64,000 bases of DNA from Teredinibacter purpureus (GTDB lineage: Bacteria > Pseudomonadota > Gammaproteobacteria > Pseudomonadales > Cellvibrionaceae), in NCBI RefSeq assembly GCF_014217335.1, contig NZ_CP060092.1, forward strand, positions 203,501 to 267,500. The letters run 5' to 3'. The number at the start of each line of letters is the position of its first letter. Positions within the stretch are counted from its first letter, which is position 1. A program made the position numbers and the translations under genes. Of the stretch, positions 686 to 19,526 are shown piece after piece. The notes beneath the pieces are model-generated. The model ran no database searches. It had not been told where the DNA came from and was given only the letters and a program-made list of their open reading frames with translations.

Positions 686-1435
686 CTAGCCTGGTACAAC
701 AACATTGGCAAGATCGGTAATATTCGCCAAATTCAGTACCGACATAGATTCCTTCAATACCTTGGAATAGGTATAAGGCACACTTTTTCCTTCGATAACG
801 GTGAGGTTTACACTTACTGTTGCACGCGTAGGTGCCAAGTGGGTATTAAATTCGGTTTCACTAATACTCATACTCGTAATGTTAACGGGCAATACTCGGG
901 TGTAACCCCACATAAATAACACAATGGGTGGTTTTTCATTATTGGTAAAACTAAAACCTCCATCGCTACCTAATAAGTCGACCAAGTTACCCAGCACACT
1001 TTCCGATTTAGGGTGCATCATTAATTCAAGTGTTGAGAGTTGCGGCAATATCCCAAATTCACCCACTATGGCATTACCTTCATTCAGGTCTTCGGTAGCA
1101 TCAAGCCGTATATCAAAAGCAATCGTTTCTTCGGTAAACGTCACGTTTTGCGCGCTTCTGATGGCGAGCAGGTCATCCTCTCCTTCAAATTCCCGTTGGT
1201 GTAATTCACGCAACGAATTACTTCTATTGGCACTGCGCGTTTTAAGCGTCTCGCTTTCCCCTTCGTCGCTCTGCATATCAACCTGCCCACCGGGGCCGGT
1301 AAAGTTAACGCTTCGACTTCGCGAGAGTTGTTCTGGGTTAAATTGAAACACCACGAAAAGTGGCGGTAAGCTTATGCCATATTCAACAAAAGCCCCTTTT
1401 AGTATTTTCGGTTTGTTGGGAAATCCGTCAGACAT
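686..1435 (-). CDS. eCIS tube-initiator/adaptor protein (CIS_tube, Afp7/Pvc7-like N-terminal type)
   Basis: A 249-residue protein. The start is placed at ATG 1435 (MSDGFPNKPK), which overlaps the end of the AAA+ gene by 8 bp; an in-frame ATG five codons upstream lies deeper inside that gene. Residues 9-35 hold the signature 'GAFVEYG...PLFVVFQFNPEQLSRSR', characteristic of the CIS tube family that forms the first tube ring on the hub and carries the 'FQFNP' motif. The C-terminal half (LFMWGYTRVLPVNITSMSI and the following beta strands) fits the tube-like barrel of the same family. Known members bridge the tube and the spike/baseplate in eCIS and in some Myoviridae-like tails. It sits between the ATPase and a baseplate gene. 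The overlap suggests translational coupling. Confidence 0.85.
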   Translation of the reverse strand: MSDGFPNKPKILKGAFVEYGISLPPLFVVFQFNPEQLSRSRSVNFTGPGGQVDMQSDEGESETLKTRSANRSNSLRELHQREFEGEDDLLAIRSAQNVTFTEETIAFDIRLDATEDLNEGNAIVGEFGILPQLSTLELMMHPKSESVLGNLVDLLGSDGGFSFTNNEKPPIVLFMWGYTRVLPVNITSMSISETEFNTHLAPTRATVSVNLTVIEGKSVPYTYSKVLKESMSVLNLANITDLANVVVPG

Positions 1436-3746
1436 TACAGCCCTCTCCAACGCCCGCTTTGGGGGTATAGGTCATACGTTTTGGGTCCCAAAGTTTTCCA
1501 ATTTTTTTGAATTCCAACCGGCTGCTGTCTAACAGGTGGCTCATACTGAGAGTACTATTTTCTTGTGCGGCTAAAAATGCGGCATTGAGCACAATATTTT
1601 TAATGTTGCCACCAGACACTTTAATGCGTTCGGCCAACCACTGAAGATCCAACTCATGGTGAAGCGGTAGTTCGGGTGGCATACTTTTTTCAAATATAGC
1701 CACTCTATTGTTGTCGTCGGGAAACATAAATTCGATAATAAAACGAATTCTTCGAATAAATGCTTCATCGATATTGTTGCGATAGTTGGTCGCAAGAATC
1801 ACTATGCCGTCGTACTCTTCAATTTTTTGTAACAGATAACTCACTTCTATGTTGGCATAACGGTCGTGCGCATCACTTACATCTGTTCGTTTGCCAAAGA
1901 GCGCATCAGCTTCATCAAAAAACAAGATTGCTTTACTCGCTTTGGCCTCTCGAAAAACACGGTCTAGATTTTTTTCTGTCTCACCAATGTATTTACTCAC
2001 AACACCCGATAAATCTATTTTAAAAAGATCCAGTTGCAATTCGTTCGCAATCACTTGAGCGGCCATTGTTTTACCCGTACCGGGGCTACCGGTAAACATA
2101 GCGCTTAGGCCTCGCCCATAAGGCAGACGATGGGAAAACCCCCAGTGTTCGAACACCGTGTGTTGATGCTGTACCTGTGTACACATAAACCGAAGTTGCT
2201 GCTTGTCTTCATGCGGTAACACTAAATCGTCCCACTCATAACGTGCGGGAACATGTGTCGATAGATTACGGAGATGATGATGAGAGACCGCTCGGCAGGC
2301 ATTGGCTAGCGACCGCACGGAAATTGGCTCCCCTAAGGATTCTACGCGCAGTTGCTTTACCACCGCATGAACCTGCGCCGACGACAATGTGTAGCGCTGA
2401 CAGACCGCAAGAATATCCTCTCGACTACCGTTTATATTTAATGCCGCCAGTGCGGTTCCCCAAAGGGCGCGATAAGCCGAGTACTCCGGTGTTTGGGCCG
2501 CAATATTCACCACCGCAAGCGAATCACTATGGTGTTGCGGCCAAGGGCTCTTGGCCGTAGTAAACACCAACGACTCGTATTGATTAACAAGCGTAGCCAG
2601 TTGCACTAATAACCCTCTGGCTTGCACGTTGTATCCAATAAGCAAATCGATATTCGCAAGCAGTATGGGCGTTTGTTGCAATAACGCCTCACGAAAACAA
2701 CACGCCAAGAGTTCCCAACTGTTTGTGCGCAGCGGTCCATTTTCAGAAAAAAGCGTGTCGGTTTCTATCATGAGTAGCCCACAATCAAATTTGGCGACCA
2801 CCGAGCGTGCTAGATCTGCCAATACGGTTTCGTCATTACCGTGTAGATGAAAAACGGGGGCCTCGGTGTGATGCAGGCTTTGCGATGGGCTATCGATCTC
2901 ACCAATATTATTTAAGGCCATCTGATAAATATGTTCGGACTGCCACGAACAGGCACAAAAGGGTCGCACGCTGGGTGTAACTCGCCTAGCAACTGCAAAA
3001 ATACGCGGGTCGAGCTGGTTGTTACCCAAACAAAATTGCAAAATTTTGGGATCGAGTGTCAAAAAGCTTGCCAGGCCGGTTGAACCCGAAGGGCTCTGTG
3101 GATCGTCGATAATATGAATAATACCGTATGCCAGTAATCGGCTGTTCTCATCTAGCATTCGGCGCGCCTGCCAGCGATCGTTTTCGTCGTGGAAAAAGAC
3201 CTCTAGTGCTAAATCAAGGCTCGGGCGTTTTCGGGTAATGTCATCCTGTAAATACGCGTATATGCGATCGTATTTTCGGCGCAACTCTGGCGCAAGTACG
3301 AGCAACACAATATTTATTTCAAGCCACGATAGATCAAATAAATTCGCTAAGGTTGCCAGCGGTAATGTTAGCTTTTCTTTTAGGCAGCGCGCTGTTTCTG
3401 TAGCGATTGTCTGCTGCACAGCGTCAATTTTTTCTGCCAGCGTCTTTTCATCAAACACCCCAATTACCGACGGGTTCGACTCCAGCAGCAGTGCAACAAC
3501 TTCTGCCTCACCAATATAGGGTAGCGCAGACGCAAAAGTGATGGGCCGTGCGGGACCGTCAGCGTTATGGCTAGGCTCGTCCGCGTCATTCGCTAACACG
3601 CCTTGCCCCATGCGCATAACGCGTCGTAGTAATAATAGATCGAGCCATTCCAGCTCCGCCTCGATATGCCGCATGGCATCGTAAGGCGGTCTGGCAACGT
3701 TTGGCTCTAGCCACCGGTTTTCGTCGAGGTCGAGATAGTCGTTCAT
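1428..3746 (-). CDS. eCIS AAA+ ATPase (Afp15/Pvc15-like)
   Basis: A 772-residue ATPase with one recognisable AAA+ domain near the C-terminus. Walker A is GSPGTGKT at about residues 551-558, Walker B is ILFFDEADALFGKR at about 604-617, followed by sensor-1 (ILATNYRNNIDEAF) and an arginine-finger region (RRIRFIIEF). The long N-terminal half (about 1-500) has a degenerate ATPase-like fold and resembles the N-terminal region of Pvc15-type proteins. In eCIS loci this ATPase is a hallmark gene needed for particle assembly or cargo loading. The start ATG overlaps the stop of the DUF4255 gene by 4 bp (ATGA), and its own end overlaps the next gene by 8 bp, so translation of the three is probably coupled. 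Strong call for the domain; the precise role is by homology. Confidence 0.92.
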   Translation of the reverse strand: MNDYLDLDENRWLEPNVARPPYDAMRHIEAELEWLDLLLLRRVMRMGQGVLANDADEPSHNADGPARPITFASALPYIGEAEVVALLLESNPSVIGVFDEKTLAEKIDAVQQTIATETARCLKEKLTLPLATLANLFDLSWLEINIVLLVLAPELRRKYDRIYAYLQDDITRKRPSLDLALEVFFHDENDRWQARRMLDENSRLLAYGIIHIIDDPQSPSGSTGLASFLTLDPKILQFCLGNNQLDPRIFAVARRVTPSVRPFCACSWQSEHIYQMALNNIGEIDSPSQSLHHTEAPVFHLHGNDETVLADLARSVVAKFDCGLLMIETDTLFSENGPLRTNSWELLACCFREALLQQTPILLANIDLLIGYNVQARGLLVQLATLVNQYESLVFTTAKSPWPQHHSDSLAVVNIAAQTPEYSAYRALWGTALAALNINGSREDILAVCQRYTLSSAQVHAVVKQLRVESLGEPISVRSLANACRAVSHHHLRNLSTHVPARYEWDDLVLPHEDKQQLRFMCTQVQHQHTVFEHWGFSHRLPYGRGLSAMFTGSPGTGKTMAAQVIANELQLDLFKIDLSGVVSKYIGETEKNLDRVFREAKASKAILFFDEADALFGKRTDVSDAHDRYANIEVSYLLQKIEEYDGIVILATNYRNNIDEAFIRRIRFIIEFMFPDDNNRVAIFEKSMPPELPLHHELDLQWLAERIKVSGGNIKNIVLNAAFLAAQENSTLSMSHLLDSSRLEFKKIGKLWDPKRMTYTPKAGVGEGCNV

Positions 3747-4582
3747 GGCGTTACCTCGAAATACAGCGTACTGCGATGTAACGTTGAAATATTAATTCGC
3801 ACGCGATAATAACCAGGGCTTAGCCCAACCGGTACGTCGAAGGACACACCGTTGGACGTTATCAATTCGCCGTCGGCAACCCGCTCACGCCCTACATCGA
3901 CATAACTACGCCAGTTCGTAAGGTTTTCACCCAGCACTGACACAACCGAACCAGCCGCACCCGATTGTGGGCTTATACCGGTGACTACGGGCAACGCATG
4001 GCCCGCATCAACACTGGGAACACCAATGGCACTTAGGCGCGGCGGCATATCGCGAGACGATTGATCGCTTTGATCAAGTTGCACCACAGCCACTTCGTAC
4101 GCAACGGATAATCGGTAGGGCGTACTAAACGTACTCCACACTTTACTCAGTTCATCAATATCAACCGGTACTTGTGTAATTTTTAATTGTTCGCGGGCAT
4201 CGGCTAAGCCTTCTGCCAGGTGCTCACTGGGTATGGCAGGAAACTGGTGCAAGACACGCATAGCATCACCCAGTATTTCGTGCGCACTGGTATTACCCGT
4301 TTCGCTATCGTTTTGCGCATAGGGCGTTAAGAGGTAATGCAAATTTAAACTGAGTGGTGGCGGTACTATTTTTGTTGGGTCGTCTTGTGAGACTTCCCAA
4401 TCTTTATTTTTAAGATAACCATTTTCCTGTACTTTATATAAAAAGAGATTAATACGACGCGCAGTGCCCGATTCGTCTGGCGCAAGCAACGAAACCGTCG
4501 CCGAAGGCGTAACTGTCATTTCTTCTTCGAGTAATGTTTTTAAGGATTCGCCGACCATGCCAATTGCCGTTGGTGCACTCAC
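3743..4582 (-). CDS. eCIS cap protein, DUF4255 (Pvc16/Afp16 N-terminal) plus IPT/TIG domain
   Basis: A 279-residue protein. The N-terminus (MSAPTAIGMVGESLKTLLEEEM, then NLFLYKVQENGYLKN and LHYLLTPYAQN) is the DUF4255/Pvc16_N signature. The characterised members cap the end of the sheath/tube and fix tube length. Around residues 195-275, GISPQSGAAGSVVSVLGENL and YYRVRIN form an immunoglobulin-like IPT/TIG domain, which some eCIS cap proteins carry at the C-terminus. It is followed by the AAA+ gene with an ATGA overlap, the classic DUF4255-AAA pair that separates eCIS from phage tails and from type VI secretion. The upstream gap to the low-complexity gene is only 10 bp. Confidence 0.9.
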   Translation of the reverse strand: MSAPTAIGMVGESLKTLLEEEMTVTPSATVSLLAPDESGTARRINLFLYKVQENGYLKNKDWEVSQDDPTKIVPPPLSLNLHYLLTPYAQNDSETGNTSAHEILGDAMRVLHQFPAIPSEHLAEGLADAREQLKITQVPVDIDELSKVWSTFSTPYRLSVAYEVAVVQLDQSDQSSRDMPPRLSAIGVPSVDAGHALPVVTGISPQSGAAGSVVSVLGENLTNWRSYVDVGRERVADGELITSNGVSFDVPVGLSPGYYRVRINISTLHRSTLYFEVTP

Positions 4583-4592
4583 AAACCCTCTC

Positions 4593-5936
4593 CTATCGAT
4601 ACAAGCGTATATACATACGCGAGAGGTTAGAGCGGTCCCAAAAAGCGGGGGAACGCGTGGAGTACGACGGCGTTATGCGTCGACTTACTGGTGCAGCATC
4701 GCGAGTAGCGGTTGTTTCACTCTGTTTACGTGTGGGTTTTCGCCAATGCCGGCGTTTGTCGGATTGCGATTCTTGCTGGAATTTGTCGTCGTCATGGCCG
4801 CGGCCGTTCTGCGGTGTTTTAACGTACACACAGGATATTTCCTGCGCCGTTGTGGTAGGTTTCATGGATGAGAAGGGCTGGCCGCCTGAAAACTTAGCGC
4901 CACGACTACGCGGCATTTTGGTGGTGTCGGCCATTGCCGTTGTGCGCGAGGGGCCTAACGCAGCTGTGACCAAACCTTTCTCGGCCGTCACTTTTTTTGC
5001 GACGAGTACTGTAGCCTTGACTACTATCTTAGGTGCGGGCTTAGGTACGGGCTCGACGTTTTCATTTCGACCAAAATTATTCGCTTCGAGTTGTTTGGAT
5101 AAAGCCTCAATCGACTGCGTGGTGGATAAATGCTGCATTGCACGTAATTTTTCCGCCATACTTGTATTCTGACCTACCGGCGTAGAATACTCGCCGCTCT
5201 TTTGGGAATTCGTTTCACCCTCATTTTCATTCAATTTATGCTGCCACGCCGTTAACACTGTTTGTAACCCATGATTAGGTGTAGTGTTTTTTTCGCTATG
5301 CGGCTTTTGGCCTGAAAGCGAATCTGTAAGGCTGGGTATTTCGAGCACGGTAGTATCGATTGCTGACCTATGCGCGATAGGTTTATTCGGTAATGGCCGC
5401 TGCTTTCCCTGACCGGCTACTTCGATTAGTTGCCCGTTAATACGTTGCCCGTTGATACTGCTCCCATTAATACCTTGCCCATTAATACCTTGCTGGCTTA
5501 TGTCATACAGCGCAGTCGGAGTGTCGCTTTCACCCCGTTGAGTAGAATGGGAAGCAGGTAATTGAGATGGATGAACCCTCGGGGAAAGTTTGGGCGTAGT
5601 GGCGTTTTTTCCTGTAACACCGCCGCTTGTCATTTTGTTGCGAACGAGAGGCGCAGCAAAAGGCTGCGACGCGTGTGGTTCAGTAGCCCCTCTAGCGCGT
5701 GTAGTGTCAGCCGGTGCCGCCCCCAGCGGCAGTTGATAATACGCCAGCATTCGATAATGAAAATTGGGCGAAAAAGAATAGCGGCCAAACGCAGGACGTA
5801 AAGCCCCGTTACGTGAGCGCCCCAATAAACCTAGCCCACGCGATACAGCCCTAAAAGGTGTTATGGCTGAACGTACCAGTTGCGACAAATAACTTTTGCC
5901 CACTCTAATATTTTGGCAATGAGACACGTTATTCAT
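4593..5936 (-). CDS. Low-complexity protein of unknown function within the eCIS operon
   Basis: A 447-residue protein with no recognised catalytic motif. The N-terminal 70 residues look folded and basic (KSYLSQLVRSAITPFRAVSR, then AFGRYSFSPNFHYRMLAYYQ). The remainder is hydrophilic and rich in T, S, P, Q, N and K, probably disordered. Around residues 145-170 is a short tandem repeat of a six-residue unit ending in ING (GQGING, GSSING, GQRING). The very C-terminus returns to aromatic/basic residues (SRMYIRLYR). It starts 3 bp after the preceding gene and lacks a clear ribosome-binding site, suggesting translational coupling. Its place between the hub-chaperone-like gene and the cap gene suggests a tape-measure-like, scaffold or cargo-related role, but nothing in the sequence proves one. 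Confidence 0.75.
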   Translation of the reverse strand: MNNVSHCQNIRVGKSYLSQLVRSAITPFRAVSRGLGLLGRSRNGALRPAFGRYSFSPNFHYRMLAYYQLPLGAAPADTTRARGATEPHASQPFAAPLVRNKMTSGGVTGKNATTPKLSPRVHPSQLPASHSTQRGESDTPTALYDISQQGINGQGINGSSINGQRINGQLIEVAGQGKQRPLPNKPIAHRSAIDTTVLEIPSLTDSLSGQKPHSEKNTTPNHGLQTVLTAWQHKLNENEGETNSQKSGEYSTPVGQNTSMAEKLRAMQHLSTTQSIEALSKQLEANNFGRNENVEPVPKPAPKIVVKATVLVAKKVTAEKGLVTAALGPSRTTAMADTTKMPRSRGAKFSGGQPFSSMKPTTTAQEISCVYVKTPQNGRGHDDDKFQQESQSDKRRHWRKPTRKQSETTATRDAAPVSRRITPSYSTRSPAFWDRSNLSRMYIRLYR

Positions 5937-5939
5937 ACG

Positions 5940-6845
5940 TTAATGACCCGCCTTTTCGTTAAGCGTTTCAATTTCGTTAGCCAGTGTTTCGATATATCGG
6001 CGACGGCGATCTCGTGTCATTGAAAGGATATCGCGTTCACTCCAATGGTAGTGAAACGCCAGATAATGCACCTCCCGAAAAAGTACATCGATTCCCACTT
6101 TAAGCTCACTAAAGAAGAAGTCTTGCAGCTCAAATGGGGCGACAAAATCTCGTTTACACTCGGGGCAATTAACATCCATTGTTAACGCAAGATGCGATGC
6201 GCGCGCCTCCATTTCTTGTTCAAGGCTCATTAACAGTGCGGCAGGTACGGAGCGCAACCACTCTACGCTTGGGGCCGTTACATCGCCGAAGTGTTTTATG
6301 CACCGGCTGAGCAAATGCAACATCAACTGTGTTTCGCTATCGTCATCAATTGCGCATAGCGCTTCTTGATCGCCACCGTTAGGCAATCTAAATTCAACTA
6401 CGGTGTTCGTTTGGTCGCTGGCCGTTACCACTGAATACTCGACGAGACACGGCAGTGATACACAAAAATGCAGGGCACTGTCGCACGCCGTTAACGGAAT
6501 ACTGGAAAGATTAAAATCAATATCCACGCCTTTTCCACAGCTTGGCCAAGGGCACGGCAACGTCGCCTGCACACGATCGCCAAAGGTCAGCTGGCGTAAA
6601 ACCATTAAACAGTATTGGCGATCGCCAACCGTTAGAGCACGAATTATGGAAGCATCGATTTTGTCTATTTCACCAATACTTTTAACACAGCGAATAAGCA
6701 CCTCAGTAACCTGAACGGCGCCCGGAAATTGTTGGGACGACAGTATTTCCTCTTCAAACCCTGTTAACGGGTTCATGACTAGTTCACAATGCCGTTTGCC
6801 ACTGACATCGGTATAGCCCATAGGTAACGTCCAACAATTTTTCAT
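5940..6845 (-). CDS. Baseplate hub assembly chaperone-like protein (T4 gp28/gp26-type, eCIS)
   Basis: A 301-residue protein. ATG 6845 (MKNCWTLPMGYTD) is preferred: a longer frame reaches 6908 but would run well into the tube gene. The N-terminal pattern 'LPxGYxDxxGxxHxxxxMxPLTGxEEE' is typical of the T4-family baseplate hub/assembly-chaperone proteins found in phage tails and eCIS. Two cysteine pairs, in CPWPSCG (about residue 102) and CPECKR (about 211), could bind one metal ion. The C-terminus has YHWSERDILSMTRDRRRRYI, a pattern seen in small tail-assembly proteins that follow the tube gene. It lies 20 bp downstream of the tube gene. The family assignment is by motif recall; the exact role (chaperone or structural hub part) is open. 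Confidence 0.75.
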   Translation of the reverse strand: MKNCWTLPMGYTDVSGKRHCELVMNPLTGFEEEILSSQQFPGAVQVTEVLIRCVKSIGEIDKIDASIIRALTVGDRQYCLMVLRQLTFGDRVQATLPCPWPSCGKGVDIDFNLSSIPLTACDSALHFCVSLPCLVEYSVVTASDQTNTVVEFRLPNGGDQEALCAIDDDSETQLMLHLLSRCIKHFGDVTAPSVEWLRSVPAALLMSLEQEMEARASHLALTMDVNCPECKRDFVAPFELQDFFFSELKVGIDVLFREVHYLAFHYHWSERDILSMTRDRRRRYIETLANEIETLNEKAGH

Positions 6846-6865
6846 AACGTGCGTCGCCTCAGTGC

Positions 6866-7366
6866 TTAACTTTCTGTGGGCTCGGTAACGGACGCGTCGC
6901 GTTCCCATCCTTCATTTTGCAATGTTATCGTTTGAATCATAACGGCATTTCCGCTGGCATCCAGTTCGGGAAGCGCCTGAAACTCCGATACCCAGCAGCG
7001 ATAAACGTTATACGCCAACACCGTAACCCCTTGTAAGTTGGTTACTTCAATGGTGATATCTTTGCGAAAATTTTTCAGCGACATGGCCGCATCGCCTTCA
7101 AAATTATTCGCTTTATTCGCCCAATCTTCGAAGGCGGTATTGTGTGTTACACCGGCCTCCAATGTTATGGCTTCGTACTTTGTCATACCGGGTAATTTTC
7201 GCCCATGAGAGTTGTCTCCTGCTTCCCGCCAGTCCACCACATCAACGGTTTTCTTGAGCGCACCACATTTACTTAAACCGGCCACATACTCGTTATCCCA
7301 CTTTACTTTAAATTTAAAATTTCGATACGGATCTTCGCGGTGTGTATTGACTGCGAACTTAGGCAT
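6866..7366 (-). CDS. eCIS/phage-like tail tube protein (T4 gp19 family)
   Basis: A 166-residue protein forming the inner tube that the sheath drives outward. Family features: 'DPYRNFKFKVKWDNEYVAG' near the N-terminus, then GDNSHGRKLPGMTKYEAITLE (residues about 51-71), then the C-terminal 'YRCWVSEFQALPELDASG' with QTITLQNEGWERD. These match the gp19-like fold used by phage tails, eCIS and Hcp relatives. Its length is normal for the family. A GGGGAG ribosome-binding site lies about 8 bp before the ATG. It follows the sheath gene by 33 bp. Only one tube gene is visible here, whereas many eCIS have two or three; further copies may lie left of the window. Confidence 0.93.
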   Translation of the reverse strand: MPKFAVNTHREDPYRNFKFKVKWDNEYVAGLSKCGALKKTVDVVDWREAGDNSHGRKLPGMTKYEAITLEAGVTHNTAFEDWANKANNFEGDAAMSLKNFRKDITIEVTNLQGVTVLAYNVYRCWVSEFQALPELDASGNAVMIQTITLQNEGWERDASVTEPTES

Positions 7367-7399: not shown

Positions 7400-9388
7400 T
7401 TAACCGGTTTGACCCGCTTTTTGGCTAATTTGAACAACCACAAATTCGGCTGGTTTCAGCGCTGCAAAGCCCACTTGAATATTGACAATGCCAGCATTGA
7501 TGTCGTCTTGTGTGGTGGTTTCGCTATCGACTTTCACAAAAAAAGCTTCTGAGGGCGTACTACCTTGAAACGCGCCACGGCGATAGAGTGTCATCATAAA
7601 CGAGGTAATATTAAGGCGAAGCGCTTGCCACAAAGGCACATCATTCGGTTCAAACACCGCCCATTGAATACCTCGATAAATACTCACTCGCATTAAAATA
7701 GCGGTTCGTCGCACGGGAATATACGCCCACTCTGCATCGCTAGTAACCGTGCGCGCGCCCCAAATAACACGCCCCGATGCCGCAAATTGCCGAATAACAT
7801 TTACGTGATAAGGCGTTGGGTTTAATAGACCTTGCTCTACATCCGTTAAGTTGGTGATAAGACCAGTAGCCCCTGCAATTGCAGCGCTCGTGCCTGCCGG
7901 CGCCTTCCATACACCACGACGCGCGTCGGTTTTTGCGTACATGCCCGCAACAAATCCCGAAGGAGGAACCGTAATGGGCTGGCTTGAAACGCCCGTGGGG
8001 TCATTCATATTTAGCCACGGCATATACACAGCGCCATATGAATTTTTCGGTGAAACACCGCCTACAAAACCCTGCGCCTCTTCAACGGTGTCGTAATCTT
8101 GCGGCATATCACCGATAAAAAAGCAGTCTCTAAGCGGGCGGTTATCGCAATAGTTAACGGCTTCACCAAACAGGCTGGGCGAGGCAACGCCAGGAATCGC
8201 GATAAGGCTTACATCTTGTTTATCATCCAGTAAATTAAGCCCATCTATATACGGCTGCTCATTAATGATGGGGTCGCCATCGGAACCCGCCGCTATCGCG
8301 ATAACAGGGCCGGCTGGCGCAACAGGGCTATGGTCACCCAATGCATAACGCGCACTATCTATGGCATACCGAATATTCGGCGGGCGCGTAATGGCGGCGC
8401 CCAATGTTTCGCGACCACCATCAAGCCGGCCTACGTTTAGAAATCCCGTTGCATTATTGGCCGCGTCACTTGCTCTAGCCACAGTCACCGACGAACCGGC
8501 ACTCGACACGCCCGAACGCAGCACCAGTACATCCACGGCATCAATTGTTTCGATCACCGCCACGAACAGGTTAAATGCAGCAGCATCTGTAGAGGCTCGT
8601 AACGGGGCGATAGAATTACGCACCGTAAACTGAAGGGCAGCAGCAATATTCGCTCCACTATTTAAATTGGCTACTTGTCCCACACCAACGCCAACACCAT
8701 CGGTTAAATCAACTTCTTGGTAACCATCGCCATTAATATTAATACGCAGCCGTGTTTCGGGCACGGTTAGCGCCATAGGCGCTGCGCCCCCGATACTCGC
8801 ACCACGAGCCTGAACACCCGCTAAGGTTGGGTTGGCATCATTAACGCTCACCTGAATTACCGCCGAGCTACTCACTACGGTTTCTACAAAAGTGGGCGCG
8901 CTCGGCACCATACTTAAGTTTTCAAACACCTCGAGTAAACTCGCCTCTTCACCACTGCCTCGGTACACATATAAGTTGAATTCATTTTCGGCGTCGACCG
9001 TACCGTTTGTAATTTCAATTTCAATGTCGTTACCCCAAACGCCGGCACTGACGGCCGAGACGGTCAACGTTTCTGCGGCCACATCCGCTCTATCGGACAA
9101 CACCAATTCCGCCGAGGCGGTATTAGCGCCAGCAACCCGAATAATGTAAGCCATCGAGCCGCCATTATTAAAAAATTGATAAACCGAATGCGCCAGAAAA
9201 GAGCTTGATTGAAAATTACCGTAGTAAGATTGAAACTGAGTGAAGTTAAAGATGAGCTTCGCTTCGCTCAAGCTACCTTTCTCGGCTTGGCCTATGAATG
9301 CGGCCGTCGACGTACTGGCGACCGTTATGGGTCGGGCGCCGCTGGACACTTCTTCAACATAAACACCGGGATAAGTGGGGGTAACCAT
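7400..9388 (-). CDS. eCIS contractile sheath protein
   Basis: A 662-residue protein with the standard sheath start (TPTYPGVYVEEVSSGARPI, then ASTSTAAFIGQAEKG) and standard C-terminal half: NPTPYHVNVIRQFAASGRVIWGART, VPVRR-type PVRRTAILMRVSIYRGIQWAVFEPN, and the final NIQVGFAALKPAEFVVVQISQ strand that interlocks neighbouring subunits. Residues about 100-330 are an inserted, surface-exposed, alanine/valine-rich region that varies between systems. The sheath contracts to push the tube through the target membrane. It has a good ribosome-binding site (GGAG, 7 bp before ATG). Only one sheath gene is visible, unlike the three of Afp/PVC. The call is firm. Confidence 0.96.
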   Translation of the reverse strand: MVTPTYPGVYVEEVSSGARPITVASTSTAAFIGQAEKGSLSEAKLIFNFTQFQSYYGNFQSSSFLAHSVYQFFNNGGSMAYIIRVAGANTASAELVLSDRADVAAETLTVSAVSAGVWGNDIEIEITNGTVDAENEFNLYVYRGSGEEASLLEVFENLSMVPSAPTFVETVVSSSAVIQVSVNDANPTLAGVQARGASIGGAAPMALTVPETRLRININGDGYQEVDLTDGVGVGVGQVANLNSGANIAAALQFTVRNSIAPLRASTDAAAFNLFVAVIETIDAVDVLVLRSGVSSAGSSVTVARASDAANNATGFLNVGRLDGGRETLGAAITRPPNIRYAIDSARYALGDHSPVAPAGPVIAIAAGSDGDPIINEQPYIDGLNLLDDKQDVSLIAIPGVASPSLFGEAVNYCDNRPLRDCFFIGDMPQDYDTVEEAQGFVGGVSPKNSYGAVYMPWLNMNDPTGVSSQPITVPPSGFVAGMYAKTDARRGVWKAPAGTSAAIAGATGLITNLTDVEQGLLNPTPYHVNVIRQFAASGRVIWGARTVTSDAEWAYIPVRRTAILMRVSIYRGIQWAVFEPNDVPLWQALRLNITSFMMTLYRRGAFQGSTPSEAFFVKVDSETTTQDDINAGIVNIQVGFAALKPAEFVVVQISQKAGQTG

Positions 9389-9450: not shown

Positions 9451-9711
9451 TTACTTCGTCGTTTTTTTAGCTTTATCGACACGCGCGGCCCTGGGCTTTT
9501 TTGCAACCGTTTCCTTCTCTGTTTTTTCTGGCTCTGAAAGCCTCGTTATTTCCACAACTTTTCGACCCAGCAATTTATTGATGTACGGATTACCCTCTAT
9601 CTCATTCGCCGAAATTTCGTATTCATATTTAGGTGGAAGGTGATAGCTCCTTCCGCTATTACACAGAACAGATACCGGACGACGGGTAAGGTTTTTCATT
9701 CGCAGTTTCAT
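9451..9711 (-). CDS. Small basic protein of unknown function, second gene of the eCIS operon
   Basis: An 86-residue protein. The start is set at ATG 9711, preceded by AAGGAAG about 5 bp upstream; a GTG six codons earlier is possible. The N-terminal two thirds is beta-rich (LTRRPVSVLCNSGRSYHLPP, then KYEYEISANEI). The last 25 residues are lysine/alanine-rich (KKPRAARVDKAKKTTK), a tail that could bind nucleic acid or be disordered. A 62-bp gap separates it from the sheath gene. Small proteins of this kind are found beside sheath genes in some phage-like tails. Function unknown; its place in the operon argues for an assembly or structural role. Confidence 0.7.
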   Translation of the reverse strand: MKLRMKNLTRRPVSVLCNSGRSYHLPPKYEYEISANEIEGNPYINKLLGRKVVEITRLSEPEKTEKETVAKKPRAARVDKAKKTTK

Positions 9712-9781
9712 ATTCACTTCCTTATTCACTTATTCACTTAAACGTATAAAACGCTTAACCATTATTCTGATATCGCGGAAT

Positions 9782-10039
9782 TTAATGTCTAATCGTTTTT
9801 CTAGCAACGTAGATCGCACTACCATCATGTAATATCGATTTTTCAAGAACATTCTCATCAACTAATTCTTCTATCGCCTGCAAGACTTGCGCCCGCGTTA
9901 CCTGGCGAGGCAATTCAAGTAGCCACCAGTTCAGAACTCCTTCAAGGGTATCGGCCGCATTACTATTGATGTCGAGATAGGTCATGATTGTATTTTCGAT
10001 CATAGAAACGACGGCCCTGTCGTCCACATATTCGCTCAC
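9782..10039 (-). CDS. Small protein of unknown function, first gene of the eCIS operon
   Basis: An 85-residue acidic protein starting with GTG (SEYVDDRAVVSMI) after an AGGGAC ribosome-binding site. It is mainly helical in appearance. Residues 45-80 (LPRQVTRAQVLQAIEELVDE, then a two-stranded turn with GSAIYVARK) resemble a small winged-helix layout, so it could be a DNA-binding or adaptor protein, but no family was recognised. It begins about 35 bp downstream of the sigma-54 promoter at 10073-10088, which makes it the leader gene of the operon. The gap to the next gene is 70 bp. Confidence 0.7.
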   Translation of the reverse strand: MSEYVDDRAVVSMIENTIMTYLDINSNAADTLEGVLNWWLLELPRQVTRAQVLQAIEELVDENVLEKSILHDGSAIYVARKTIRH

Positions 10040-10072
10040 ACATCGTCCCTCGCCTTATAACTCAGCTATCGG

Positions 10073-10088
10073 TGCAGAGACTGTGCCA
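10073..10088 (-). promoter_or_regulatory. Sigma-54 (-24/-12) promoter of the eCIS operon
   Basis: On the minus strand the site reads TGGCACAGTCTCTGCA. It matches the TGGCAC-N5-TTGC consensus at the invariant GG (-24) and GC (-12), with exactly the required spacing between them; one base differs in the -12 box (CTGC for TTGC). Transcription would start about 12 bp downstream, near 10061, leaving a leader of about 20 bases with an AGGGAC site before the GTG of the first gene. A sigma-54 activator gene lies divergently at 10579. The regulatory link is inference from this arrangement. Confidence 0.8.
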
Positions 10089-10121
10089 ATTAATACGTGC
10101 GCTTAAGTACCTACAATATGG

Positions 10122-10138
10122 GCTTCGCTTTTCGAAGC
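10122..10138. repeat. Inverted repeat upstream of the sigma-54 promoter
   Basis: GCTTCG-CTTTT-CGAAGC is a perfect 6-bp inverted repeat with a 5-base spacer. It lies about 35 bp upstream of the -24 element, within the region where enhancer-binding proteins or helper proteins bind. It could be an activator site or a small hairpin; the run of T after it on the plus strand is separated by several bases, so it is not a convincing terminator. Confidence 0.4.
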
Positions 10139-10146
10139 GGGTCGTT

Positions 10147-10244
10147 TTTGCCCCATTAAAAAGTGCGAGCTAACCGTGCGCCTAACTATTTTCGTTGCTT
10201 TTACACAAAATAGATAAAAGACCCTGTGGGGCCTATTTGCCCCA
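10147..10244. promoter_or_regulatory. Possible upstream activator region with repeated TTTGCCCCA
   Basis: The 9-mer TTTGCCCCA occurs at 10147-10155 and again at 10236-10244, 89 bp apart. The second copy also forms an inverted repeat GGGGC-CTATTT-GCCCC (10228-10243). Both lie 60-170 bp upstream of the sigma-54 promoter, the usual place for upstream activator sequences of sigma-54 activators. The rest of the 10040-10578 gap is AT-rich and holds the promoter and ribosome-binding site (GGAGG) of the activator gene; no other gene is seen there. Confidence 0.4.
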
Positions 10245-10578
10245 GCTATCTCGCTTTCCCAACACTCATTTAAAGCCCGCTTTAACCGCTCACTTTATTA
10301 ACCTATTAATAGAATTAATTGCATAACAAGCATCTCAAGATATTCCCTTGGGTTTTATAAAAAAGGGAGGAAAGTGGTTTATTAACGAAAAGTAAGATAT
10401 AGATCAACTGCTAAGGGGCGTTGAAAATTGCGTAAGCGAACCCGACAATTGCTTTTTTTTTACGGAATGGTACTGTTGTACAATCGATATTAGATTAACG
10501 GATTAATCGTAATTACAGACACTTTTTTTAGAATGAGTTCCACTATTTATACACGGCACATTACATGGAGGTTGCAAG

Positions 10579-11997
10579 GTGAAGCACATACAGTTTATTT
10601 TTCCTGTAAAGCTAAAAGAACCCAGCGCTGCAACTAAAAACCTCACACTAAAGGCTATATCTGAACGCCTCAGTGAAGATTATATTTGTCACTTACCGCT
10701 TTCAAACCAGGAGGAGGGCCCTCAATTTGAGACTAGGAATACGGTATTCATCGTTGTCTTTAGTTCTATACGAATCCTTCAGCAGGTCGACATATGCGCT
10801 TACGTAACGGCCCTAAGGCAACGAGGCCCGTCACTTATTCTCGCATTATTCGAGTGCCCCTTACCGGACAATATTCCGCGCCCTGTCTGTGAATTTGATG
10901 ATATTATTTTTGAGTATTCCTGCGCAACGGATGCCGCCGAACAAACCGCGAAAAAAATATTTCAGTTCAGTAGAAAGCAATCAGGAAAACTATCAGACAA
11001 CGACATACAATCATTTTTTAAATTAAATTTTGTCGGGAAATCAGAAAGTTATTACCGTATTATAAATCGTGTTATTCGTGTATCACACTGCGATGCCGCC
11101 GCACACATTTTTGGTGAATCTGGAACAGGAAAAGAAATGGTGGCGCGTGCATTACATTATTTCGGCAATCGTCGCGATAACGCCTTTGTGCCCATTAACT
11201 GCGCGGCCATTCCGGACGCATTATTTGAAAGTGAATTATTTGGTTACGAGAAAGGTGCGTTTACCGGCGCCAACGCGTCACATGCTGGTTTAGTTTCGTT
11301 GGCCGATAGAGGAACGTTATTTTTGGATGAGGTAGATTCACTTTCCGAAAAGGCGCAATCTGCACTGCTTCGATTTCTGCAAACGGGTGAGTACCGGCCC
11401 GTAGGCAGCAATAAAATAAGGCATGCCGATACACGTATTATCTCGGCAACCAACACGCCCCTTGCAAAGAAAGTGATGCAACAACATTTTCGCGAAGATT
11501 TAATGTTTCGGTTAAACGTTTTAGATATTACCATTCCACCATTACGCGAACGCGTAGAAGATATTGCCGTTATCGCAAAGCATTTAATGTCACGGTTCTC
11601 TCGCATCCACAATCGCGGTAAAAAAATACTGCATTGCGATTATTTAGCATGGCTTGAAACACAATCCTGGCAGGGGAACGTACGGGAGCTGGAGAATCAC
11701 CTTTTACGCGATTATCTTTTGCGGGAGGAGTCGCTCATTAATAACCAGCAATTGGACGCGCCAGAAAGCCCCGCTAGTGCTATGCACGAGGTGGCCAATA
11801 GTGAACTTCAGAATTTAACGTATCAACAAGCGAAGGAGGTCGTTATCAATAATTTCACTAAACGCTATCTTAAGAGCATTCTGAGCGAAGCAGAGGGAAA
11901 TGTAACCTACGCAGCAATTCTTGCGGGAAAAGAGCGCCGTTCGCTCGGTAAAATGATGAAAAAATACGGCATAGACCGCACCGAATACACGCTATAA
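10579..11997 (+). CDS. Sigma-54-dependent transcriptional activator (enhancer-binding protein)
   Basis: A 472-residue activator starting at GTG, with GGAGG about 7 bp upstream. Central AAA+ domain: Walker A GESGTGKE (about 179-186), the sigma-54 contact loop GAFTGA (about 226-231) preceded by ESELFGYEK, Walker B GTLFLDEVDSL, and the RLNVLDITIPPLRER segment. The C-terminus (about 430-465; ILSEAEGNVTYAAILAGKER) is a Fis-type helix-turn-helix. The first 140 residues are not a clear receiver: a hydrophobic strand pattern is present but no phosphoacceptor context is evident, so the input signal is unknown. It faces away from the eCIS operon, whose promoter is of the sigma-54 type, and most likely activates it. 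T6SS VasH-type regulators are the closest functional analogy. Confidence 0.92.
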   Translation: MKHIQFIFPVKLKEPSAATKNLTLKAISERLSEDYICHLPLSNQEEGPQFETRNTVFIVVFSSIRILQQVDICAYVTALRQRGPSLILALFECPLPDNIPRPVCEFDDIIFEYSCATDAAEQTAKKIFQFSRKQSGKLSDNDIQSFFKLNFVGKSESYYRIINRVIRVSHCDAAAHIFGESGTGKEMVARALHYFGNRRDNAFVPINCAAIPDALFESELFGYEKGAFTGANASHAGLVSLADRGTLFLDEVDSLSEKAQSALLRFLQTGEYRPVGSNKIRHADTRIISATNTPLAKKVMQQHFREDLMFRLNVLDITIPPLRERVEDIAVIAKHLMSRFSRIHNRGKKILHCDYLAWLETQSWQGNVRELENHLLRDYLLREESLINNQQLDAPESPASAMHEVANSELQNLTYQQAKEVVINNFTKRYLKSILSEAEGNVTYAAILAGKERRSLGKMMKKYGIDRTEYTL

Positions 11998-16961: not shown

Positions 16962-19526
16962 CTAAAAATCAACACTCACACTCAGCACTGCGGTACGCCC
17001 TGCCGAAGTATTTTCTCGAACACCAAAAACAGTCGCGGTGTTATACCGTTGATCGAGTACATTTTTGACTGTTAATGTTACGTGAGCGGTTTCTCCGGCT
17101 AACGGAAGGTGGAGCCCTGCCCCAAGATCGATTGTGGTGTAAGCACCATAAAGCCAATTATTTTCGTTTTCGGCAAAGCGCTCACTCACATATTTAAAAC
17201 CACCGTTAAACGTTAAGTTTTCGTTAAGCGCATAAAAACCAAATAGGCTCGCGGTTTGTTCGGCCGCCAATGCAGGTACAAGCCCTGTATTTTCACCACT
17301 GGTAATTTCAGGCAGCATAAAGGACCCTGCCGCAATAACGTTAATATCGTCACTCGCTTGTAGCGATATATCCATGTCGATTCCTTGTACCCGCTGGCTG
17401 TAGGCTTGTTGAATGGTACGCACACCTTCAATGCGTTTTGTTTCAACAATATTTTCCTTTTCAATAGCGTAAACGGCCACGCCTGCAACCATTCGCCCTT
17501 CGAGCAATAGCGCTTTAAAGCCAGCCTCCACCTGTTGTGAAAACTCTGGATCAGCGGGTTGGTTACCGCTTGCATCCACAACACGGTTAACACGAAACCC
17601 TTCGTTGTAATTACTGAACAGTGAATAACGCTCACTGATTCGATACACCAAACCTAATTGCGTAGACCACTGCCAATACTTAGGCTGCGTGGCAGTTTGA
17701 CCATCGACCGCGACTTCTTCAGCCGTTAACAGCGAATAGCGCAGCCCCATTGACGCAACCCAATAGTCATTCAGTTCAATTGAATCTTGCGCATATAATC
17801 CCAACTCTTGAGTGTGCAGCTCTTGATGGTAATCGGCATAGGCATGATTAGCGGTGTTAGCCGAAAGCGTTAATGCAGCGATAACATCATCCAGCGCCTG
17901 CACCGTTTGCGCTTCTGTCCATGTTTGACCCGGCAATAAATCTCGCTCTTCAATAATGTACCGCTGCTCCACCTGTTGGCTTCGCCAATCTGCTCCAAAG
18001 GAAAGATGGTGCGTTGTTGACTGCCACGGTAATGTACCTTGCAACCCCAAACCGCCACTGGTAATGGTGCTTTGTGATTCTTCATCATAAAGCCCCCTTA
18101 CACGCCCCAAGCTAAACCGCCAATCAGGAGCATCCCAGCGCAGTACAATAGGTACTGCCAATTGGCCGCCTAAAAAGAACAGGGTAAAGTCGTCACCGAG
18201 TTCATCCAGGTTCACCAGTAAATCGTTGTTTAACAACGTATCAGTCGTTGTTCGTATGCCATAGCGGTATTCTTGCTGAACATTAAAACGTGCGTGGCCT
18301 CGCCATTCAGAGGAGAAGTAATGGCTTACTTCGGCAGAAAACAGATTGGAGTGCGATGTAAAATCCTCTTCTGACTGCCCCGCAACTTGGCTTAGCGTTG
18401 TACCTTGCCTCGAATCGTCGTAATCATTGAGCACGTCAAAATCACGGTCTAACACTTGCGATGATTGCTGGTATTCAAACCCAACATCCACCCGTGTATT
18501 GCCACTGGGTTGCCAGCTGAGCGAAGGCGCAAGCAGGTGCTGGTACAAATTGCTCAGTTCGCCAGACAAATCCTGCTTTTCGGTTGCCGCCACGAACCGG
18601 TATTGAATGTTATCAGCGGAGGTTAAACGACCATTGGTATCCAACTCGAATAAACCTCGGCCATTATCCCCCCCACCCATGCGCAGATGCGTAAAAGTAT
18701 CGTGCATAGGTTTTTTTCGAACAACGTTAATCACACCGCCGGGTTCGCCCTGACCGTACCGCAGCGTAGCGGGGCCTTTCACAACTTCGGCTTGCTGGAT
18801 ATTGACGGGCATTAAACGCACACCGGTGCGGCCGTCAAGCCGAAATCCATCGACATAAATACCTTGCCGTGCATAGCCGCGAATGCGTGCATCGTCATTA
18901 GTGTCCGACAAACCATCGCCAGGCAATACGCCACTAGCGTACTTCAAAATATCGTCGAGACTGGTCGCTTGAATATCTTCGATCAAGGTTTGAGGGAGCA
19001 CGTTGAAGAATCGGGATGAGTCAAAATAAGCCACGCCAGCGTGCAATTGTGTATTGGTGACCGTGTTATACCTAAACGGGTAGCGGCTGCCCGTAACGAG
19101 GAGTTCATCTATTATCGCTTGTTCGCTGTCAGTGCTCCGCGTGGTTTCTCCCGCTTCCGGCGTAGGAGGTTTAGCGGTAATCACGTAGGCGTCGCTCGTG
19201 GCGACATAAACAAACTCTAAGGCCGTGGAAGAGAGTAACAACCTTAGCGCCGTATCTGTTGGCAAAGGGCCTAGTACGGGTGTTGTACGATAGCCTTTGA
19301 GTAAATGCTGATCGGCAACGATAGTACTGCTCGATTGAATTGCAAACTCCACTAGGCCTGCCTGCAACGATTGTGCAGGCAAATCGAAAGCCCGAAGTGA
19401 CGCGACAATATTGGGCGTACCGCGAGTATCCGCGAAGACGGGTTTTACACAGCCAACCGTACTCCCTACCCCCATCGCAATAATTAATACGGCTGTAGCC
19501 AACGAGTGGCAATGACATTTATTCAT
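16962..19526 (-). CDS. TonB-dependent siderophore-type receptor with STN signalling domain
   Basis: An 854-residue outer membrane receptor. The start is taken at ATG 19526 (MNKCHCHSLATAVLIIAMG), which gives a signal peptide; a frame reaching 19598 adds an unlikely prefix. Residues about 45-95 (FDLPAQSLQAGLVEFAIQSS ... ALRLLLSSTALEFVY) form the secretin/TonB short N-terminal domain used to signal to FecR. The plug follows at about 165-290 (LPQTLIEDIQATSLDDILKY, GIYVDGFRLDGRTG, GPATLRYGQGEPGGVINVV). The beta-barrel ends in ...VLSVSVDF with a terminal aromatic. The FpvA/FhuE-like plug motifs favour a ferric siderophore as ligand, but the ligand cannot be read from sequence. Confidence 0.93.
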   Translation of the reverse strand: MNKCHCHSLATAVLIIAMGVGSTVGCVKPVFADTRGTPNIVASLRAFDLPAQSLQAGLVEFAIQSSSTIVADQHLLKGYRTTPVLGPLPTDTALRLLLSSTALEFVYVATSDAYVITAKPPTPEAGETTRSTDSEQAIIDELLVTGSRYPFRYNTVTNTQLHAGVAYFDSSRFFNVLPQTLIEDIQATSLDDILKYASGVLPGDGLSDTNDDARIRGYARQGIYVDGFRLDGRTGVRLMPVNIQQAEVVKGPATLRYGQGEPGGVINVVRKKPMHDTFTHLRMGGGDNGRGLFELDTNGRLTSADNIQYRFVAATEKQDLSGELSNLYQHLLAPSLSWQPSGNTRVDVGFEYQQSSQVLDRDFDVLNDYDDSRQGTTLSQVAGQSEEDFTSHSNLFSAEVSHYFSSEWRGHARFNVQQEYRYGIRTTTDTLLNNDLLVNLDELGDDFTLFFLGGQLAVPIVLRWDAPDWRFSLGRVRGLYDEESQSTITSGGLGLQGTLPWQSTTHHLSFGADWRSQQVEQRYIIEERDLLPGQTWTEAQTVQALDDVIAALTLSANTANHAYADYHQELHTQELGLYAQDSIELNDYWVASMGLRYSLLTAEEVAVDGQTATQPKYWQWSTQLGLVYRISERYSLFSNYNEGFRVNRVVDASGNQPADPEFSQQVEAGFKALLLEGRMVAGVAVYAIEKENIVETKRIEGVRTIQQAYSQRVQGIDMDISLQASDDINVIAAGSFMLPEITSGENTGLVPALAAEQTASLFGFYALNENLTFNGGFKYVSERFAENENNWLYGAYTTIDLGAGLHLPLAGETAHVTLTVKNVLDQRYNTATVFGVRENTSAGRTAVLSVSVDF

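Follow-up and report, generated by a model that had tools for sequence, protein, structure and literature searches.

An eCIS operon behind a putative sigma-54 switch

The stretch of Teredinibacter purpureus DNA analyzed here (the window; 64,000 nucleotides, C1:203501-267500 of a 4.89-Mb genome in two contigs) carries an operon for an extracellular contractile injection system (eCIS) on the minus strand and, divergent from it, a gene for a sigma-54 activator (bacterial enhancer-binding protein, bEBP). Judged from the sequence and its conservation, this operon is most probably switched on by the neighboring activator through paired enhancers and a sigma-54 promoter (probability of about 0.88). 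As an arrangement of sequence elements the switch is real, and very probably it also works as one. Its parts recur around homologues of orf1, the first gene of the operon, in an arrangement called the module below. Within the window, they are located as follows:

9782..10039, minus strand: orf1, operon gene 1, 85 residues, predicted winged helix, marker of the module
10073..10088, minus strand: -24/-12 (sigma-54) promoter element TGGCACAGTCTCTGCA, 10/12; 17 of the 18 other orf1 loci tested have an equivalent
10139..10154, minus strand: proximal enhancer-like palindrome GGGGCAAAAACGACCC, ending 50 bp upstream of TGG
10228..10243, minus strand: distal enhancer-like palindrome GGGGCAAATAGGCCCC (inside TGGGGC-N6-GCCCCA), 89 bp upstream of the proximal copy
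10579..11997, plus strand: sigma-54 activator (bEBP), 472 residues, with a receiver-like N-terminal region (low-confidence model), an AAA+ domain with GAFTGA and a Fis-type helix-turn-helix (HTH)

The -24/-12 promoter element

The sigma-54 consensus used for scoring was TGGCACG-N4-TTGCW. Read from 10088 to 10073 on the minus strand, the window sequence is TGGCACAGTCTCTGCA, which agrees with this consensus at 10 of 12 positions and has GG and GC at the -24/-12 spacing, as proposed in the initial annotation. The element ends 33 bp upstream of the GTG start codon of orf1 at 10039, rather than the 34 bp given there for the first eCIS gene. The rpoN gene is present in the genome (PF04552, E = 1.1e-69). 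With GG and GC required, the two strands of the 64 kb contain 8 sites that score 10/12 or better, and shuffling of the 300 bp upstream of orf1 gave P = 0.018 for the window site; the site by itself is therefore only suggestive, and the relatives carry the weight.

A -24/-12 element was found just upstream of orf1 in 17 of the 18 non-window orf1 loci tested (12 chosen via orf1 and 6 via the activator), and Fisher's combined P for the 18 loci against first-order Markov shuffles was 9e-19. In the one miss, L057, GG is kept and GT stands in place of GC. Over all 25 module loci, window included, the element was present in 23, with L057 and L094 as the exceptions. T1, GG (2-3), T13 and GC (14-15) were invariant among the 23 best-scoring sites, for which the scan required only GG and GC and took the best-scoring site of each locus. 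With four weaker orf1-like loci added, a site of at least 9/12 was present within 150 bp in 24 of 29 loci (in L128, a 9/12 site at 149 bp).

The divergent activator and orf1

The product of 10579-11997 matched PF00158 (E = 1.9e-60) and contains the Walker A sequence GESGTGKE, in agreement with its initial annotation as a sigma-54 activator. The GAFTGA loop described as intact is present, yet it is an exception in this group of proteins, in which the 17 other aligned activators read GAFTDA or GAYTDA. PMC4641369 lists both among the variants with which activation is maintained. The activator of L098, encoded away from orf1, reads GAYTGA. HTH_8 was detected in 14 of 14 aligned activators at E<=1, with a weak match in the window activator (E = 0.094), in whose model the C-terminal helices are present.

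No Pfam family matched the N-terminal region in the activators, and in the alignment this region is variable and absent from several members of the clade defined below. In the model of the window activator (mean pLDDT 75.3; residues 1-53 below 50, the next 75 mostly about 50-70), residues 56-134 form alternating strands and helices in a receiver-like order, at low confidence and with no Pfam receiver match; the residues of the phospho-acceptor pocket, judged by eye on the alignment, are not conserved. The best PDB matches of the model include FleQ, NtrC4, NtrX and VpsR, and we take these to reflect mostly the AAA+ core. The top NCBIfam score of the window activator was obtained with a PEP-CTERM response regulator model, below the cut-off of that model.

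In the tree, 25 activators from the module or from orf1-bearing genomes fell into one cluster (the clade; fork support 100/99) that excluded 18 of 19 other activators. L011 (G009; the one other) and L059 (G284, an activator without orf1) fall inside it, so that membership does not strictly go with orf1. The tree was built without L023 and L104 (non-module matches) and without L058, which has no Walker motif for trimming.

The model of orf1 (mean pLDDT 73.7) has a winged-helix topology, and a Foldseek search against the PDB returned only weak winged-helix matches (best E = 0.014). Neither orf1 nor orf2, the next gene of the operon, had a Pfam or NCBIfam match. The orf1 profile matched 747 proteins; among the 120 listed, the few that carried a name were nearly all "hypothetical protein", for example in Candidatus Tenderia electrophaga. 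The product of orf1 may be a regulator or an assembly factor.

Paired palindromes upstream of the promoter

A palindrome, GGGT-N8-ACCC, was observed upstream of the promoter in several loci. Of 25 non-window orf1 loci, 16 had exact copies within 700 bp upstream of orf1, 26 in all over 17.5 kb; the orf1-less control loci had 6 copies in 332,614 bases. The relaxed form GGGK-N8-MCCC lay no more than 270 bp from the promoter element in 17 of 23 promoter-bearing loci, and two relaxed copies 81-102 bp apart were found in 11 of the 17; in L057, two copies are 46 bp apart. The end of the nearer copy was separated from TGG by 61-67 bp in 11 loci, by 50-53 bp in the window, L051 and L081, by 75-78 bp in L025 and L027, and by 97 bp in L084. 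Rayleigh tests over three helical periods gave p = 0.006, 0.0014 and 0.00015, with L084 entered by its shorter palindrome; the spacing looks like helical phasing, which is only suggestive. At such near-fixed distances from the promoter, the palindromes are plausible binding sites for the activator.

In the window, the copies at 10139-10154 and 10228-10243 are variants with GGGG half-sites; two such palindromes in its intergenic region occurred in 13 of 20,000 shuffles. A composite pattern scanned over 22 whole genomes gave 15 sites in 13 genomes, 13 of the 15 being the orf1 promoter, and its reversed control gave 3; the pattern was modeled on these promoters, and the telling part is the scarcity of other sites. 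A window-type composite, drawn from the window site, occurred once in the window's 4.9-Mb genome, at that promoter.

A form two bases shorter inside, GGG-N8-CCC, was found without the longer form in L048, L053 and L054, and both forms are present in L084. The activators of these four loci make up one subclade (support 100/100), and on this comparison the form of the palindrome tends to follow the activator subclade. The shuffle P for the shorter form was weak in L048 (0.14) and L054 (0.11).

Palindromes were also seen in other settings. Exact copies of GGGT-N8-ACCC at 46425 and 60498 of the window lie within long open reading frames and are not arranged as a pair; they are probably due to chance. 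In L126 (G009 contig 39), which has a clade activator and no orf1 in the stretch fetched, GGGK-N8-MCCC palindromes at 18082 and 18107 lie just upstream of the activator gene and would be compatible with its possible self-control.

Relatives and control loci

When 58 genomes of relatives were searched with the activator, the five best matches after the window's own (G020, G007, G005, G052 and G014) all adjoined an orf1 homologue. Extended to 390 genomes of the order, the search also turned up G118, where orf1 is present, and G348 and G284, where it is absent. With a profile of 7 orf1 proteins, matches were obtained in 12 of 368 other genomes of the class, or in 13 of 369 when the genome of the window is counted. 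These loci support the reading of the initial annotation: each of the 12 orf1-found loci carried, upstream of orf1, a -24/-12 element scoring 9/12 or better, and in 8 of the 12 the fetched 6-20 kb region also held a clade activator (in one, about 5 kb away). In the remaining four genomes (G723, G765, G779 and G651), a clade activator is encoded elsewhere; that of G765 is on the same contig, at a distance of about 31 kb.

As a query for contig scans, the full orf1 alignment had too little conserved. A closer orf1 subset, used in a scan of named genomes, returned 8 loci, of which 3 were already known (L080, L082 and L085), and added L081, L083 (a Desulfobulbaceae metagenome-assembled genome, MAG) and L084 (a Chromatiaceae MAG). 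The search of the phylum added G781 and G955 (3 other genomes of 398 positive, one already known), and that of the phylum of L083 added G1158 (3 other genomes of 297 positive). Four weaker orf1-like matches, L086, L087, L127 (L123) and L128 (L124), had no activator or contractile injection system (CIS) match in the stretch examined and were excluded from the 25 module loci, an exclusion resting partly on context.

Of the same 369 genomes, 29 gave Pvc16_N matches (36 in total), and 10 of these 29 also carry orf1. From the 26 Pvc16 matches away from orf1 loci, 20 were fetched as controls, three of which (G620, G656 and G723) are second Pvc16 loci of genomes with the module at another Pvc16 locus. 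None of the 20 orf1-less loci gave an activator match at E 1e-10 or an orf1 match at E 0.05. In the 19 controls scanned for the promoter element (L071 was left out), with the start of the Pvc16, sheath or AAA gene taken as a guess at the first gene, a site of at least 10/12 lay within 2 kb upstream in 2, both more than 1 kb away, and a site of at least 9/12 lay within 100 bp in 3 (L065, L066 and L077). Several fetched regions were cut by contig ends.

Machines headed by the module

Fifteen of the 25 module loci, window included, are eCIS loci (the window, L024, L025, L026, L045-L049, L052-L055, L057 and L084, with L045 and L057 assigned by Pvc16_N alone). Five belong to type VI secretion systems (T6SS) in which TssB (VipA) and TssC (VipB) are fused in one sheath gene (L027, L028, L050, L093 and L094, the last assigned by the sheath gene alone). 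In three, the stretch examined held no CIS genes, and two are cut by contig ends (L056 and L083). The fused-sheath T6SS loci are headed by orf1, and a clade activator is nearby in all but L050, where it lies about 31 kb off in the genome. CIS genes follow orf1 on the same strand in 20 of the 25 loci; in L094, about 1.2 kb separates them. The module is present in Pseudomonadota and Desulfobacterota; the CIS link was seen only in Pseudomonadota, because, of the two Desulfobacterota loci, L083 ends at the contig edge and L125 shows no CIS genes over the stretch examined.

Judged by gene content, the module favors contractile injection systems and is not exclusive to them. Operon, promoter and activator co-occur far beyond the window's genome. 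The description of the activator as dedicated needs softening, because the module also heads T6SS operons and three loci with no CIS genes over the stretch examined. At L051:8996-9421 and downstream, orf1, activator, promoter and a palindrome pair precede a gene for a PEP-CTERM protein. At L081:4149-5240, the module heads a gene for a papain-family protease, and no CIS gene was matched by the queries in that locus.

Proposed mechanism and alternative explanations

The genes, the promoter sequence and the palindromes are observed, as are their conservation and co-occurrence. On the proposed mechanism, sigma-54 RNA polymerase would transcribe the eCIS operon from the minus-strand element at 10073-10088, and the closed complex would stay idle until the divergent activator bound the paired palindromes at 10139-10154 and 10228-10243. 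The activator would then form a ring, hydrolyze ATP and open the promoter, with a transcription start near 10062. The signal would most likely enter via the activator's own level or via its N-terminal receiver-like region, which is seemingly not phosphorylated.

An ordinary sigma-70 promoter might drive the operon instead, the -24/-12 match being due to chance. The evidence from the single site is modest, given the eight equally good sites in the window, but the recurrence of the element at 17 of 18 other loci and the lack of an excess of sigma-70-like sites in the region (5 found, shuffle mean 6.4) led us to reject this explanation as highly improbable. It is very unlikely that the promoter depends on sigma-54 and is served by another activator of the genome rather than by the divergent gene. 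Candidates exist, as the genome holds 15 PF00158 matches, of which 10 exceed 200 bits, and 4 of the 12 orf1-found loci have no clade activator in the fetched region; however, all four genomes have a clade member elsewhere, and the palindrome form tends to match the activator subclade. The module may, finally, serve mainly to control orf1, as a possible winged-helix regulator, with the particle genes following indirectly or from internal promoters. The constancy of orf1 as a partner, even at the three loci where the stretch examined held no CIS genes, and its predicted winged helix would fit such a role, but the same-strand CIS genes after orf1 in 20 of 25 module loci make it unlikely.

Activation of the operon by the divergent activator through paired enhancers also has to be read against several observations that do not fit it well. 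No CIS genes were seen over the stretch examined at three module loci (L051, L081 and L125), and L057 (GT for GC) and L094 (no site) have no clean promoter site despite carrying orf1 and a clade activator. The palindrome was first spotted by eye (in the window and L024-L029, where L029 is L057) and then tested on the 25 non-window orf1 loci and the controls; in the 17 clade loci outside this set, an exact copy was present in 11. Both window palindromes are GGGG half-site variants and not the exact consensus. Over 7 genomes, the window-type composite matched twice and its reversed control three times. Matches to the N8 form also occur in the window and L093, where they overlap longer sites or lie in C-rich sequence, and no consensus palindrome was found within 270 bp of the -24 element in L028, L050 and L125 (L122).

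A broader proposal, which we hold to be about an even bet, is that a portable cassette of winged-helix orf1, activator clade and paired enhancers has been set before contractile injection systems of different structure, namely free eCIS particles and fused-sheath T6SS. It would act as a master switch for contractile weapons and would also move between phyla; the inner spacing of the enhancers would follow the DNA-reading helix of the activator, and orf1 would be a second regulator or an assembly factor.

The eCIS operon of the window

The minus-strand genes downstream of the promoter encode, by Pfam matches, a phage-type sheath, a gp19-type tube, T4_baseplate, Pvc16_N, a winged-helix AAA ATPase and a CIS_tube protein:

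9451..9729, minus strand: orf2, small protein of 92 residues, no Pfam or NCBIfam match
7400..9388, minus strand: eCIS sheath (PF04984, PF17482)
6866..7366, minus strand: eCIS inner tube (PF06841, 1.8e-42; TIGR02241)
5940..6908, minus strand: T4-type baseplate protein (PF12322, 1.3e-13)
4593..5936, minus strand: 447-residue operon protein with a short run of GING-type repeats, no Pfam or NCBIfam match
3743..4582, minus strand: Pvc16-type protein (PF14065, 4.9e-43)
1428..3746, minus strand: AAA+ ATPase with a winged-helix domain (PF22977, 2.4e-45; PF00004), which we take to resemble Pvc15/Afp15
686..1450, minus strand: CIS_tube protein (PF19266, 3.3e-6, barely above its cut-off)

The operon extends past the window edge (L001) with gp25, baseplate J, an OB-domain spike and two eCIS_core proteins, together with a GPD-like protein that scored slightly below the family cut-off. 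Sheath, tube, baseplate, Pvc16, AAA ATPase and eCIS_core are thus found in one locus, which upholds the annotation of the operon as an eCIS. No T6SS membrane-complex family was among the matches of the 20 proteins scanned in the window and L001 (activator included), for which no separate search was made. Among the final operon genes examined, L001:298-5088 encodes a 1596-residue eCIS_core protein with Ntox4 and Ntox1 domains, likely an effector.

Comparison with known systems

The initial annotation knew of no standard description of sigma-54 control for eCIS, and none was found in the literature searched. In full text, no paper on such control was among the matches listed; most subscription papers and bioRxiv preprints lie outside the scope of the search, so the result does not prove absence. 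The combination of extracellular contractile injection with sigma-54 retrieved a Geobacter paper only, with the phrase in a reference title. Papers found with contractile injection system and RpoN concerned, by title, T6SS or Xanthomonas, and there were none for eCIS with enhancer-binding protein, for Tenderia with contractile, or for metamorphosis-associated contractile with RpoN. The words contractile and injection have 0 occurrences in a 2025 sigma-54 regulon survey. According to a 2023 review, some eCIS loci have no conserved regulatory genes and their regulation remains unclear.

The activation of eCIS is largely an open question, and the activator, promoter and enhancer code named here are directly testable. 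Beyond the initial annotation, the enhancer-like pair, orf1 as module marker, the activator clade and the reuse on T6SS are new. The module would predict sigma-54-controlled loci, in the class survey in the 10 of 29 Pvc16-bearing genomes that carry orf1, and it would tie the control of eCIS to that of one T6SS subtype.

Among the known regulators of related particles, a LuxR-type (GerE) regulator is found beside eCIS in 25.8% of loci (Geller et al. 2021, PMC8213781); the main text of that paper nowhere uses the term sigma. This regulator is likewise a conserved transcription factor adjoining eCIS loci, but it belongs to another protein family. R-tailocins are controlled by PrtR/PrtN, a repressor and an activator tied to DNA damage (PMC10598620); here too a phage-tail-like particle has a dedicated regulator, but not a sigma-54 one. 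The solved bEBP structures FleQ, NtrC4 and VpsR have the AAA+ core in common with the window activator, a likeness by structure match only; their partner genes differ from those of the window activator, whose N-terminal region has no Pfam match.

A parallel in kind is offered by T6SS, of which VasH is a sigma-54 activator. Sigma-54 control of T6SS has also been described for RpoN/Sfa2 and the P. aeruginosa H2-T6SS (PMC8855297). As in VasH-type control, sigma-54 and a bEBP would activate a contractile injection system in the window; in contrast to it, the putative switch described here stands before eCIS and fused TssB-TssC T6SS operons, with orf1 as the first gene and GGG-N10-CCC palindromes upstream.

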